Origin: Hippea sp. KM1
GTDB lineage: Bacteria > Campylobacterota_A > Desulfurellia > Desulfurellales > Hippeaceae
Direction: 5' to 3'
Assembly (NCBI RefSeq): GCF_000526195.1
Contig: NZ_JAFP01000001.1
Coordinates: 186,001-250,000 of the forward strand
Length of the DNA: 64,000 nucleotides
Part shown: piece after piece, positions 43,170 through 50,598 of the stretch
How positions within the stretch are numbered: the first letter of the stretch is position 1
Layout of the letters: every line of letters begins with the position of its first letter
The notes under the pieces: model-generated
Database searches by the model: none
What the model was told of the DNA's origin: nothing
Seen by the model: the letters and a program-made list of their open reading frames with translations, nothing else
Program-made: the position numbers and the translations under genes

Positions 43170-44191
43170 GGATAGCGTTTATTCTGGATGAGGTGTGGGA
43201 TAGCGCCTTAACGAATTACGCCTTAAACATAGAACATCTTGCAAGGGAATTCCACGATACGGTTGTTTTATCGCTTAAGGATAGCTATGTCTATAAAAGC
43301 CTAAAGAATGTTGTGCCGATTAAGCCCCTAAGAAACAAAAACCCTTTGAGCAGCCTCGGTGGTTTTTTCTATTTGAGTAAGGTTTTAAAGCAGATTAACC
43401 CCGATGTTGTTTTGACCATAAGGGGCGATGCCTCTTTTTTTGCCTGTTTACTAAAAAAATCGCTAAACTTTAGGCTTTTTAGGGTGTTTGGGGAGGACAA
43501 GCAACTAAGAACACCGCCAAACTGCATAGATACTCTTATTCTGCCTTGTGAGTTTTTAAAGGAAGACATACCGCCCAAAAGGGCTGAAAAGGTAATCATA
43601 CACAAAAGCTTCGTCGATAGGGAGCGCTTTGCCTTCTCTTTGGATGGGCGCAGAAGGGTTAGAAGGGAGTTGGGGATAGATGATAAATTCGTATTCGGTG
43701 CGGTGGGCAGATTGGACAGGGTTAAGGGATTTGATCTGCTCATAGAGGGATTTGCCCTTGCGGGTATCGATGATGCCGTTTTGGTTATAGTGGGGCAGGA
43801 GAAGGGTCTAAAGAAAAACGAACTGCTTGGGCTTGCTGAGGAGTTGAATGTTGGGGATAGGCTGATTTTGATTGATCAGAGGCGCAGCGATATAGTGGAT
43901 ATTATGAGCAGTTTCGATGTGGGTGTTGTATCGAGCGTGGGCAGCGAGGTTATACCGAGGGTATTCTTCGAGTTTATGAGTGTGGGTCTGCCCATCATAA
44001 CAACCGATGTTGGCTGTCTTGGCGAGGTTGCTAAAGAGGGTTTTTCTATCCTGGCTGAGCCCACGACCTATAGCATAAAGAAGGCCATTCAGAGGGCAAG
44101 GGATGCCGACCTTGTGCGATTGTCATCGGCATCCTTAAAAGAGGCCGAAAAGTATGCACTTAGATTGCCCGCAAACTTCTTTAGCCCCTAA
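43166..44191 (+). CDS. Glycosyltransferase family 4 protein
   Basis: 341 residues, GT-B fold. The C-terminal nucleotide-sugar domain has [27 protein letters not shown], and [20 protein letters not shown], the E-x7-E type region of GT4 enzymes. Acceptor and sugar are unknown. Its ATG overlaps the hisIE stop and its end overlaps the opposite trpA gene by 11 bases. It stands far from the polysaccharide locus, so lipid A/LPS core work is possible but unsupported. Confidence 0.85.
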
Positions 44192-44882
44192 GGGACAAAA
44201 GAAAGGTCTCAAAATCTCCCCTCATCGCCTCAACAGCGGCTGTTCCTATAACAACCCCATCTGCGTATCTGCAGGCATTTTCTATGTCTTGTTTGTTTCT
44301 TATCCCAAAACCCAGAATGACCTTATGCTTTGCCCCTTTGAGAAACTCTATCTTTCTTTTTGTCTCATCATCCAATCTGAACTCACCCCCCGTTGTTCCC
44401 CTTATTGAGACAAAGTATATAAAGTCGTTTGCGTCCCTTTTTAATCTTTCCAATTCTTCTTGCCTGCTTTCTGGCGTTGCAAAATACACAAAGCCTATGC
44501 CCTTTTTTGATAAGGGTTTTTTGAATCTGTTTGATTCCCTGTAAGGCACATCGGCCAGTATCAATCCATCGATGAAGCCAAAATCACCTGCAAATCGGTC
44601 TATGCCGTATGAAAAGACTATGTTTGCATAGGTCATGATGTAAAGCCTGCCGTTAAATATCCGCCTTGCCTGTTTTGTCGAGTCTAAAAAATCCGCCATC
44701 CTGTATCTTTTTAAAACCTCCATTGACGCTTTCTCGATTACATCGCCATCGGCCGTTGGGTCTGAAAAGGGCAGGCCTATCTCTAAAAAATCAACCCCGT
44801 ATCTGTTGCACAGCTCAACGGCCCTTAAGAACCCCTCCCTGTCTGGATAATTACACACCAGATATATCCCTAACCTACACAT
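44181..44882 (-). CDS. trpA: Tryptophan synthase alpha chain
   Basis: Cleaves indoleglycerol phosphate to indole for TrpB. 233 residues, shorter than the usual 260-270, trimmed mainly at the ends and in loops. [17 protein letters not shown] holds the catalytic Glu and Asp. [12 protein letters not shown] and [10 protein letters not shown] form the phosphate site. Last gene of the trp operon; overlaps trpB by 8 bases and the opposite GT gene by 11. Confidence 0.95.
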
Positions 44883-46035
44883 AGATCCCCTCCAGGATAG
44901 GTAAATCCTTATCGCCCCTGCCGGAAAGATTCACTATGACGGTTTTTCTTGCAAAGTCTTCCTTGTTTTTTATTAGATACCCTAAGGCATGAGAGCTTTC
45001 AAGCGCCGGTATGATGCCCTCAAGCTGGCTCAACATTTTAAACGCCTCAAGAGCCTCATCATCGAAACATACACCGTATTTGACCCTGCCTGAATCCTTC
45101 AAAAAGCTGTGAACAGGCCCAACGCCCGGATAATCAAGGCCTGCTGAAATGGAATGAACTAAAGAAACCTGCCCATCATCATCCTGCAGAAGATAGCTTA
45201 ATGCCCCATGCATTATGCCTGGTCTTCCTTTGGTTAGGGCTGCTGAGTGCTTGCCTAACTCCAAGCCCTCTCCGCCTGCCTCAACGCCGTATAGCTTTAC
45301 GGTTTTATCCTTCAAAAAGCCGCTGAATATGCCAATTGCATTGCTCCCACCGCCAACGCAGGCTATAACGGCATCGGGTAAGGATTTTTGTTTTGAGAGT
45401 ATCTGTTTTCTTGCCTCCCTGCCTATGACCGATTGAAAATAGGCCACAATCTGGGGAAACGGATAAGGCCCAACAACGCTGCCTATTAAATAGTGGGTTG
45501 TTCTTATGTTTTTAACCCAATCCCTTAATGCCTCATTGATGGCGCTTTTTAGGGTTCTGCTGCCTTTTTTTACTATCCTTACCTCAGCCCCCAATAGCTT
45601 CATCCTTAATAGGTTTGGCCTTTGCCTTTCAGCATCCTTTTCTCCCATATAAATCACACATTCTAAACCCATCAGGGCTGCTGCTGTGGCCGTTGCAACG
45701 CCGTGCTGGCCGGCTCCTGTTTCTGCTATGATCCTCTTTTTACCCATGAACTTTGCCAGTATTATCTGGCCCAAGGTGTTGTTTATCTTGTGTGCCCCTG
45801 AATGGAGCAGGTCTTCCCTTTTTAGATAGATGTTGATGTTCAGCTGGTTGCTTAGGTTTTTTGCAAGATAGAGTGGTGTTGGCCTTCCTGCATAATCCTT
45901 TAGGTATCGGTTTAGTTCCTCTTTTGCCGCTTTGTTTTTTTTGAAGGCCTTAAAGGCCTCTTCAAGCTCATCCAATGCGGGTATGAGCGTTTCGGCCACA
46001 AATTGACCGCCGTATTGACCGTAATATCCTTTCAT
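44875..46035 (-). CDS. trpB: Tryptophan synthase beta chain
   Basis: PLP enzyme joining indole and serine. 386 residues. The PLP lysine is in [13 protein letters not shown], the phosphate loop is GGGSNAIG, and [10 protein letters not shown] is the substrate loop. A TrpB1 type, meant to pair with TrpA. It overlaps trpF by 4 bases. Confidence 0.97.
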
Positions 46036-46604
46036 CTTTTGCTCCTTACGATCTCTAAAAATTCCCTCATTTTCGATATGTCCTTTTTGCCCGGATAGGC
46101 TTCCACACCGCTTACCAGGTCAACGCCAAATACACCCAAGCTTTTTATCCTTGAAACATTCTCCGCATTTATGCCGCCTGCCACAAACAGCCTGTCTTTG
46201 TATTTGAAGTTTTTGAGTATCTCCCAGTTGAAGCTTTTGGCCGCCCCTCCTATCTGTTCTGTGTATGCATCGAACAATAAAAGTCCCTCTTGTTTGACCT
46301 CTGGCAGGCTGTCTTTTATCCTGTAAACCCTGATGGTGTTTTTTAGCCCTATATCTGCATACACCTGGGTATAGTCAAGCCCAACAAACTCAACGGCCTC
46401 CTTGATTTGAGCTTCATTTTGGTTGACGAATATGCCGACGGTTTTTACCTTGTCTTTAATTCTTTTTACTATTTGTCTTGCACTCTCAAAATCTATAAAT
46501 CGCTTGCTTTTTGGATAGAACACAAACCCGACAAAATCCACGCCAAGCTCTATGGAGGCCTTTACATCCTCATAATTGGTCATGCCGCAGAACTTAACCT
46601 TCAT
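46032..46604 (-). CDS. trpF: Phosphoribosylanthranilate isomerase
   Basis: 190 residues, TIM barrel. [20 protein letters not shown] carries the catalytic Cys; the general-acid Asp lies in [23 protein letters not shown] and GVDLVSGVE form the phosphate site. Overlaps trpC by 4 bases at its start and trpB at its end. Confidence 0.95.
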
Positions 46605-47335
46605 AGCAGCTCCTCAAAGGCTTTGTCTATGTTTTTAGCCTTAAGCAGGGTCTCACCGATTAAAAAACCGTCGCAATACCCCTCAAAGAACTCTATGTCT
46701 GCTCTAATTTTTATGCCGCTTTCTGCAATCCTGATTGCATCAAAGTCTATCTGCGATAGAATCTTTTTTGCCCTGAATAGGTCTATTTTGAGGTTGTCTA
46801 AATCCCGTGAGTTTACGCCCACGATGTTGGGCTTTAGGCTTCTTATCCTGTTTAGCTCTTCTTCTGCGTGAACCTCAATTAGGCATTCCAGGCCCAATGA
46901 ATGGGCATAGTTGTACAGCTCTTCTAATTTTTCATCATCCAAAATCCTTGCGATTAGAAGAACAAGGTCTGCCCCGTTTATGTATGCTGCCTCTATCTGT
47001 CTTTTGTCTATTATAAAATCCTTGCAAAGAACAGGCATATCCAGAGAGCTTGCCACCTTTTTTAAAAGCTCAAAACCGCCTCCAAAGAACGCCTCATCGG
47101 TCAGAACGCTTACGGCCTTTGCGTATTTGGAATAGGATGCGGTTATCTCATTTAGGTCTATTGTTCTTATCTTACCGGCAGAGGGTGAGGAGGATTTTAT
47201 CTCGGCTATGATGTTGGTCTGGCCCTTTTTGAAAAAATCGTTTAATCTAAAGATGGGCCTTTCCCTTTTGCCTGAGGGTTTGAGCTTTTCTATTTCCCTT
47301 TTCTTTTTGCTTAGTATATCCTCAAGAATACCCAT
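46601..47335 (-). CDS. trpC: Indole-3-glycerol phosphate synthase
   Basis: About 244 residues, TIM barrel. IIAEIKSSSPSAG with the catalytic Lys, VLTDEAFFGGGFE, VLCKDFIID and VGVNSRDLDNLKID are all canonical. ATG at 47335 overlaps the trpD stop as TGATG; a GTG one codon earlier is the alternative. Confidence 0.96.
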   Translation of the reverse strand: MGILEDILSKKKREIEKLKPSGKRERPIFRLNDFFKKGQTNIIAEIKSSSPSAGKIRTIDLNEITASYSKYAKAVSVLTDEAFFGGGFELLKKVASSLDMPVLCKDFIIDKRQIEAAYINGADLVLLIARILDDEKLEELYNYAHSLGLECLIEVHAEEELNRIRSLKPNIVGVNSRDLDNLKIDLFRAKKILSQIDFDAIRIAESGIKIRADIEFFEGYCDGFLIGETLLKAKNIDKAFEELL

Positions 47336-48327
47336 CACTTACTCCTTAAGGAGTCCAGTTTTTCTTTGGCCTTGCCGTTTTTTATGCTTTCTTTTGCAAG
47401 CTTAAAGCCATCCTCGATGGAATCTGCAACATCGGCAATGTATAAGGAAAACCCCGCATTCAAGGCTATGGCATCCGAAAGCTTATCGTGTTTGCCCTCA
47501 AACACCTCTATCAATAGATTGGCGTTTGTTTTTGCATCAAAGCCCTTGATGTCGTCTAAACCTACCTCTATGTTTAGCTCTTTCGGGTCGAATATAAACA
47601 TCTCCTCTATGCCGTTTTTTCTTATGAAGCATTTGGTTTTGGATGAGCCGCTTACCTCATCAAGCCCATCAAACGATGAGACAAAGGCGACATTGTCCAT
47701 GTTTAGGATTCTTGAAGCATCGAACATAACACCCAAGAAGGCCCTTGAGAAGACGCCAATCAGTTGGGCATATGTGTCAGATGGGTTGGAAAGCGGGCCT
47801 ATCAGGTTGAAGATCGTGCGTTTTGAAAGTTTTCTTCTTATGTTTGCTACATGTTTCATAGCCGGGTGGAAGTTGGGTGCAAACAAGAAGACGAAGTTGT
47901 GTCTATCTAAAAAAACCTCTGCCTCTTTTTTGCCTAAATCGGCTGCTACGCCGAGCTCTTTGAGTATGTCGTATGAGCCGGATTTTGAGCTTATGGCCCT
48001 GTTGCCGTGCTTGGCCACAGGCACAAACAGGCTGCATACGATTGCCGCTGCGGTTGATATGTTGAATGTGTTTTTGCCATCGCCTCCCGTTCCACAGGTG
48101 TCTAAGGTCTTTTTAAGGCTTTCCAGTTTTACAGCATGCTGCTTTAAAGACATAACAGCCCCTGCAATCTCCTCTGCCGACTCACCCTTGTCGGATAAGA
48201 GCATCAAGAACTCCTTAACCCCATCCTCGTTTAGCTTTCCGTTTAGCATTCCATCAAAAACCGCCTTTGATAGTTCTAATCCTATATCCTCCCCCTTTTT
48301 CAATCTGCCGATTGCCTCAGTCAACAT
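47335..48327 (-). CDS. trpD: Anthranilate phosphoribosyltransferase
   Basis: 330 residues. The PRPP-binding GTGGDGKNTFNIST and KHGNRAISSKSGSYD are diagnostic, as is NLIGPLSNP. ATG at 48327 follows AAGGGGG and overlaps the trpG end by 11 bases; an in-frame upstream ATG at 48345 has no ribosome site. It is a stand-alone TrpD, not fused to TrpG. Confidence 0.96.
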   Translation of the reverse strand: MLTEAIGRLKKGEDIGLELSKAVFDGMLNGKLNEDGVKEFLMLLSDKGESAEEIAGAVMSLKQHAVKLESLKKTLDTCGTGGDGKNTFNISTAAAIVCSLFVPVAKHGNRAISSKSGSYDILKELGVAADLGKKEAEVFLDRHNFVFLFAPNFHPAMKHVANIRRKLSKRTIFNLIGPLSNPSDTYAQLIGVFSRAFLGVMFDASRILNMDNVAFVSSFDGLDEVSGSSKTKCFIRKNGIEEMFIFDPKELNIEVGLDDIKGFDAKTNANLLIEVFEGKHDKLSDAIALNAGFSLYIADVADSIEDGFKLAKESIKNGKAKEKLDSLRSK

Positions 48328-48889
48328 GGCAAACCCCCTTAACAAAGTTCTTTACTATCTGCAGGCCGAACTGACTTAAGTATGACTCAGGGTGAAATTG
48401 AACACCGTAAATCCTCAAGGCCTTGTTTTCTATGGCCATTACCTCGTTATCGGTTGCAGATGTTGCTACTGTCTCAAACCCATCAACCTTCCCTCTTACG
48501 ACCAAGGAGTGATACCTTACGCCTGTAAACTCCCTCTTGATTGTTTTGAATATCTCTGAATCGGAATGTATAATCGTATCGGTTTTTCCGTGCATGATTC
48601 TTTTTGCCTTTTCTATGGAAAAACCGAAATAGAGGCCTATTGCCTGCATACCCAAACAGACACCGAAGATGGGCAGCTTCCCCTTGAAGGCATCGATTGC
48701 ATCAAGGCTCAAAAGGGAGTTTTTGGGATGCGATGGGCCTGGCGATATGGCTATGCCTTTTAGGTCTTTCAGTCTTTTGATTCTATCAATCCCTTCTGTG
48801 TTTCTTATAACCGCAACATCATCAAACAGGCCTATGTAATGGGCTAAGTTATAGGTGAAGGAATCGTAATTATCTATCAAAGCTATCAT
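48317..48889 (-). CDS. trpG: Anthranilate synthase glutamine amidotransferase component
   Basis: 190 residues, class I glutaminase. The oxyanion strand is GISISPGPSHP-like (GIAISPGPSHP), the nucleophile is in GVCLGMQAIG, and the His/Glu pair is in GVQFHPESYLS. It supplies ammonia to TrpE and could also serve PabB. It overlaps trpE by 20 bases. Confidence 0.95.
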   Translation of the reverse strand: MIALIDNYDSFTYNLAHYIGLFDDVAVIRNTEGIDRIKRLKDLKGIAISPGPSHPKNSLLSLDAIDAFKGKLPIFGVCLGMQAIGLYFGFSIEKAKRIMHGKTDTIIHSDSEIFKTIKREFTGVRYHSLVVRGKVDGFETVATSATDNEVMAIENKALRIYGVQFHPESYLSQFGLQIVKNFVKGVCHVD

Positions 48890-50399: not shown

Positions 50400-50424
50400 G
50401 CAGGGCAGCTACATATCGCTACCC
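50400..50424 (-). promoter_or_regulatory. trp attenuator control hairpin (segments 1 and 2)
   Basis: GGGTAGC (complement of 50418-50424), beginning in the last Trp codon, pairs with GCTGCCC (complement of 50403-50409) at the leader stop codon. A ribosome stalled on the Trp codons would cover segment 1 and free GCTGCCCTGC (complement of 50400-50409) to pair with GCAGGGTAGC (complement of 50348-50357). Confidence 0.75.
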
Positions 50425-50486
50425 CACCACCAGTTATTTAGCTGCTTGCTTATCTTGGTCTCAAAAAACAAACCATCACAACTCAT
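50409..50486 (-). CDS. trpL: trp operon leader peptide with three consecutive Trp codons
   Basis: 25 codons from ATG 50486 to TAG 50409. The sequence ends NNWWWGSDM; the three Trp codons lie at 50424-50432 (TGGTGGTGG read on the minus strand), directly before the hairpin that competes with the terminator. AAGGA precedes the ATG but overlaps the predicted -10 box, so the mRNA may start at or within a few bases of the ATG, as known for leaderless trpL of Sinorhizobium. The peptide itself has no other expected function. Confidence 0.9.
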   Translation of the reverse strand: MSCDGLFFETKISKQLNNWWWGSDM

Positions 50487-50495
50487 AGCACTATC

Positions 50496-50524
50496 CTTCT
50501 ACCAAAATCTATAGGTTTTGTCAA
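50496..50524 (-). promoter_or_regulatory. trp operon promoter
   Basis: On the minus strand TTGACA (complement of 50519-50524), 17 bases, then TAGAAG (complement of 50496-50501). The expected start point near 50489 lies 3 bases before the trpL ATG. Confidence 0.65.
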
Positions 50525-50569: not shown

Positions 50570-50598
50570 TTGACAGATGAAAATTCAGGTCTATTATA
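50570..50598 (+). promoter_or_regulatory. Promoter facing the polysaccharide locus (P1)
   Basis: TTGACA (50570-50575), 17-base spacer and TATTAT (50593-50598), five of six bases of the -10 consensus. It would first transcribe a 30-codon frame at 50621. Confidence 0.65.

Follow-up and report, generated by a model that had tools for sequence, protein, structure and literature searches.

A probable trp attenuator with a near-leaderless leader peptide gene and two serially coupled terminators in Hippea sp. KM1

In textbooks, attenuation of the trp operon is the model case of gene control through RNA folding, and is drawn as four RNA segments with one terminator. Two serial intrinsic terminators behind a single leader peptide are said to have been described by Kwak and co-workers in 1991, in the ermK leader of Bacillus licheniformis; that leader differs from the Hippea leader reported here in being antibiotic-stalled and leadered, in serving a resistance gene, and in its Firmicutes origin and unrelated sequence. 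The E. coli-type trpL (general knowledge; PMC7298713) shares with the Hippea leader a leader peptide with tandem Trp codons, the opposition of 1:2/3:4 to 2:3 pairing and a terminator before trpE, but the Hippea leader has a near-zero 5′ UTR and two terminators joined by a fourth switch helix, 4:5. Leaderless trpL genes are also known: the RNA starts at the AUG in trpLE(G) of Sinorhizobium meliloti (PMC7298713) and in trpL1 of Streptomyces lividans, which likewise encodes WWW (PMC8079986). Both have Trp codons and an attenuator, as here, in other phyla; neither account describes a 4:5 relay (PMC7298713, PMC8079986), and for S. lividans trpL1 two hairpins and one U-rich stretch are reported, with no mention of a linked second terminator (PMC8079986). 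The Campylobacter jejuni trp leader peptide likewise has translation evidence, and this trpL is reported from the C. jejuni group only, being absent from other Epsilonproteobacteria (PMC3847290, PMC11955535).

Paired attenuators also occur in leaders of other kinds. Some rimP leaders of Gammaproteobacteria resemble the Hippea leader in having tandem terminators and a potential antiterminator, but no amino-acid leader peptide is described in the passage concerned (PMC2965389). Salmonella mgtCBR has two attenuators in one leader, as here, but uses two leader ORFs, two signals and no intrinsic terminators, whereas a single ORF would serve both in Hippea (PMC3641672). Our search, which covered open-access literature, turned up no description of a trp leader in which a second terminator is coupled to the first. 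The second terminator, linked to the first, is the most unusual part of the Hippea leader; leaderless trpL itself is already known elsewhere.

The DNA analysed (hereafter the window, 64,000 nt) comes from the single 1,742,311 bp contig of this genome and carries, on its minus strand, a trp operon in the order trpE-G-D-C-F-B-A. The trpE gene, for anthranilate synthase component I, lies at 50249-48870, with a GGAGG Shine-Dalgarno sequence at 50259-50255, and the remaining genes (trpG, trpD, trpC, trpF, trpB and trpA, in overlapping order) occupy 44181-48889. Comparison of the operon proteins with NCBIfam profiles supports the names trpE to trpB, the best match of TrpE being TIGR00564 (trpE_most) with a score below the family cut-off; trpA (44181-44882) is named from its own sequence and position only. 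The rfbA (rmlA) gene, first of a sugar/surface-polysaccharide cluster, diverges on the plus strand from 50845, and a promoter match TTGACA-16-TATTAT (window 50570-50597, plus strand) faces it.

Directly upstream of these trp genes lies a short ORF, trpL (50486-50409, minus strand), which encodes the 25-residue peptide MSCDGLFFETKISKQLNNWWWGSDM and ends in TAG. Its three consecutive UGG codons (TGGTGGTGG, 50432-50424; W19-W20-W21) are the predicted stall site, four codons before the stop, and are followed by GSDM. The preliminary description had proposed just such a 25-codon trp leader frame between a TTGACA promoter and an attenuator, in a span (50409-50524) that does run from the -35 hexamer to the stop codon, and had named conservation of the Trp codons in relatives as one point on which the proposal would turn. 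We collected the DNA upstream of trpE throughout the phylum sample (25 genomes), wherever a usable trpE was present. The Trp codons are conserved: a WWW leader peptide is present in all 18 full-length trpE leaders of families f1-f3, and one genome of family f4 (G024), the nineteenth leader of the phylum, has WW. Because the DNA flanking the leader is unrelated among relatives (the nearest congener, G007, has a tRNA gene upstream) while the leader is conserved, we consider the leader to be kept by selection; as judged from these comparisons, the WWW frame at this locus is not there by chance.

The RNA that follows is consistent with this. From trpL to the end of the second terminator its folding energy is 8.8 s.d. 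below that of dinucleotide shuffles. In 12/12 representatives, segments 1:2 and 2:3 pair better than shuffles do, and for both helices pairing is better within than between species (p=1e-4 for 1:2; p=4e-4 for 2:3), so that the trp leader peptide reading is borne out by coevolving RNA as well as by codons. We preferred these energy tests to an alignment of the 1:2 hairpin, because MAFFT misplaces two leaders (G008, G009) in it and the covariation counts are weak, with two pairs showing two-sided change. The predicted structures and their coevolution thus provide the mutually exclusive 1:2/3:4 and 2:3 pairings and the intrinsic terminator expected of a trpL-type leader, and we are highly confident that this trp operon is controlled by ribosome-mediated attenuation. 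What the preliminary description had missed is that its single attenuator contains two terminators in tandem.

The first terminator, T1 (3:4; 50383-50322, minus strand, as are all the RNA features below), is a 62-nt hairpin of -48.2 kcal/mol followed by TTTTTTATTT; the second, T2 (5:6; 50311-50273), has -25.7 kcal/mol and is followed by TTTTTTATTTT. Two strong U-tailed hairpins, predicted to be intrinsic terminators behind one leader peptide, lie between trpL and trpE in 18/19 leaders of the phylum. G024 has one, which implies either a loss of the second terminator in f4 or its acquisition in f1-f3.

Six segments can be laid out along this RNA. Segment 1 (GGTGGGGTAGC, 50428-50418) overlaps the last Trp codons and pairs with segment 2 (GCTGCCCTGCTG, 50409-50398), whose first base is the final base of the TAG codon and which can pair with either 1 or 3. 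Segment 3 (TGGCAGGGTAGC, 50359-50348) is the apical part of T1, and its pairing with 2 gives an antiterminator of -25 kcal/mol. Segment 4 (CTTGCTAAGGGTAAGCGGC, 50340-50322), the 3′ arm of T1, can form 15 pairs (-26.2 kcal/mol) with segment 5 (GCCGCAAACCTTAGCAAG, 50310-50293), which covers the 5′ arm of T2 and its loop side; against random T2 hairpins this match has p=0.001. Segment 4, when freed by the pairing of 2 with 3, can also fold alone, at 50341-50325, into GCTTGCTAAGGGTAAGC before a T-run; this hairpin may be a weak third terminator that competes with 4:5.

We propose that these parts probably make up a ribosome-mediated trp attenuator in which one sensor commands two serially coupled intrinsic terminators, and, with somewhat less assurance, that the coupling is a six-segment relay passing the stall signal from T1 to T2. 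Transcription would begin some 0-4 nt upstream of the trpL AUG, and ribosomes would load on an essentially leaderless message. When Trp is plentiful, the ribosome would pass UGG-UGG-UGG to the stop codon and cover segment 2 (or leave 1:2 paired after its release); with segment 2 occupied, T1 would form and RNA polymerase would stop, and any polymerase escaping T1 would then meet T2. When Trp is scarce, the ribosome would stall on the UGG codons and mask segment 1, leaving 2 to pair with 3 and so block T1. Segment 4, thus freed, would pair with 5 as it emerges, before 6 exists, so that T2 would be delayed and polymerase could reach trpE.

Staged folding is compatible with this order of events. 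With the ribosome placed as stalled at the first UGG, 2:3 forms before 4 is made and then 4:5 before 6, in 18/18 leaders; in the window, with segment 1 masked and segment 4 still to be made, 2:3 is present in the minimum free energy (MFE) structure. After the emergence of segment 6, the MFE structure has 5:6 in preference to 4:5 in 18/18. As 5:6 is the more stable when 6 emerges, 4:5 must act kinetically, which is how antiterminators in attenuators generally act.

The explanation that competes best with such a relay, and that we consider possible but unlikely, is a classical single-switch attenuator with a passive T2, in which only 1:2/2:3/3:4 respond to Trp, T2 is a leaky back-up that lowers basal read-through, and the 4:5 match is a by-product, either of the origin of T2 from T1 by duplication or of a GC clamp common to both. 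The final MFE preference for 5:6 suits it. Part of the 4:5 match is indeed a GCCG/CGGC clamp common to the arms of both hairpins, but against random T2 hairpins (the same base pairs reshuffled, so that the own stem is equal) the 4:5 complementarity is superior in 18/18 leaders (p 0.001-0.027), and with the outer clamp held fixed it is still significant in 18/18 (p<=0.045). In G014, G016-G018 and G010, segments 4 and 6 resemble each other, a likeness that duplication would leave; in G004, G005 and G021, however, they are no more alike than shuffles and 4:5 is nevertheless strong, which partly counters duplication as the whole cause. Also against this explanation, 4:5 in G008 has 20 pairs, the last four reaching into the T2 loop. 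Mean 4:5 energy is -22.7 kcal/mol within species versus -15.6 across species (p=5e-5). We also compared 201 unrelated terminator-like hairpins from about 464 kb of this genome: not one matches segment 4 or 5 equally well (-25.3 at best, versus -26.2 for 4:5), and these 464 kb contain no further tandem hairpin pair with strong complementarity. A shuffle of the loop only gave p<0.05 for 4:5 in only 2/18 leaders, and we therefore do not rely on it. There is also a functional objection to a passive T2: a strong T2 working freely would block trpE, and hold the operon off at low Trp, even with T1 released, and some opener of T2 is therefore to be expected under such conditions. These considerations lead us to favour the relay, in which 4:5 would be that opener.

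The near-leaderless start was predicted from the promoter. The -35 hexamer TTGACA (50524-50519) is followed, after a 17-nt spacer, by a -10-like hexamer TAGAAG (50501-50496) that ends 9 nt before the ATG. TTGAC(A/T) stands in the same place in 19/19 leaders of the phylum, with -10 boxes in the same register (TAAACT, TAGTAT, TATTAT, TATACT and others); when 90 nt upstream were scored, the best promoter in 19/19 was this one, with its -10 ending 6-10 nt before the ATG, and in G045, from another phylum, the -10 ends 5 nt before it. As transcription usually starts 5-9 nt after the -10, the 5′ UTR should be about 0-4 nt. In the window, the -10 hexamer is a weak one (4/6 match), and single-genome promoter scores are only modestly above shuffles (p 0.005-0.18); because of these modest scores, our argument is built on the repeated register. 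In addition, no conserved Shine-Dalgarno sequence precedes trpL in the 19 leaders, whereas GGAGG stands before trpE in most of these operons; the best anti-Shine-Dalgarno energies range from -7.8 to +2.4 for trpL and are about -10 for trpE in most operons, and the stronger trpL matches overlap the promoter region. The trpL mRNA is thus very probably near-leaderless, with a predicted start about 0-4 nt before the AUG. This agrees with the preliminary description, which had suggested a nearly leaderless message and held that a start far upstream would speak against it; the conserved predicted register argues against such a start. Its remark that trp attenuation by leader peptide is best known in proteobacteria understates the range, as leaderless trpL has been reported both for S. 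meliloti (PMC7298713) and for S. lividans (PMC8079986).

Translation of trpL from a normal leadered mRNA, with an upstream promoter, a 5′ UTR of about 100 nt and AAGGA as Shine-Dalgarno sequence, seems improbable to us. The window does offer an AAGGA ideally spaced (7 nt) from the ATG and, at 50598-50593, a TATAAT that matches the consensus perfectly. The AAGGA, however, shares bases with the -10 box, and neither G007 nor most of the relatives have it, so that it is probably unused; the upstream DNA is not conserved, having a tRNA gene in G007; and the TTGAC -35, the spacing and the distance to the ATG are conserved in 19/19. Neither AAGGA as a Shine-Dalgarno sequence nor TATAAT as the true -10 is conserved in relatives, and both candidates were dropped.

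Some other leader mechanism (T-box, TRAP or riboswitch) with an incidental WWW frame is very improbable: we found nothing in its favour, no match in the window attains an Rfam gathering score, and WWW is conserved together with the coevolving helices 1:2 and 2:3. The T-box covariance model gave no match at the gathering score in the window and none listed for the leader, and Rfam RF00513 (Trp_leader) scores 14.9 bits in the leader against a cut-off of 41; by sequence, the leader is not a member of that family.

Outside the phylum, most of 94 sampled trpE upstream regions are without a WWW frame; only five WW/WWW frames among them were judged real (G270, G257, G140, G127 and G308), three of these with two terminators. 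In a Deferribacterota-like phylum (51 genomes), WWW leaders stand close behind promoter-like sequence and have paired hairpins of the GGCCGUG...CACGGCC type, and the same layout is found in the phylum of G045 (9 genomes) and in G257. The design, as predicted from such features, thus turns up again in three further phyla, one of them Deferribacterota-like. For promoter spacing, systematic scoring covered the window's phylum and G045; elsewhere it was judged by eye. An automated count outside the phylum gave two terminators in at least 22/30 WWW leaders, a lower bound because automated calling misses interrupted U tracts (as in G403), and significant 4:5 in at least 20. On balance, we lean slightly towards a conserved 1:2 | 2:3 | 3:4 | 4:5 | 5:6 relay behind a near-leaderless trpL that is common to at least three phyla.

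If the relay operates as proposed, one stall signal would be handed on, segment by segment, to a second terminator, and the operon could be shut off more tightly with no repressor. A near-leaderless start would let ribosomes load immediately on the RNA as it is made. As it recurs in distant phyla, one can ask, as a testable question, whether leaderless starts are favoured in attenuators that need reading by the first ribosome.

Further leaders were noticed in the wider sample. In the phylum of G270, nearly all genomes with strong trpE matches (leaders L216-L236) have a near-leaderless-looking WWW trpL and tandem GGCCGUG...CACGGCC terminators, and on these the relay could be tested independently. 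Two more leaders with a WWW trpL (MNKKAF..CWWWR), about 170 nt upstream of trpE, come from a Verrucomicrobia MAG and from an uncultured bacterium (L014, L066); their trpL follows a TATAAT/TATACT box at a distance of about 10 nt and has one terminator after it. Near-leaderless trpL may be widespread among phyla. In G127, which belongs to the same phylum as G257 with its near-leaderless tandem form, the WWW leader just upstream of trpE (L122) has a clear AGGAG Shine-Dalgarno sequence and one terminator, and a second WW leader at this locus precedes another ORF.
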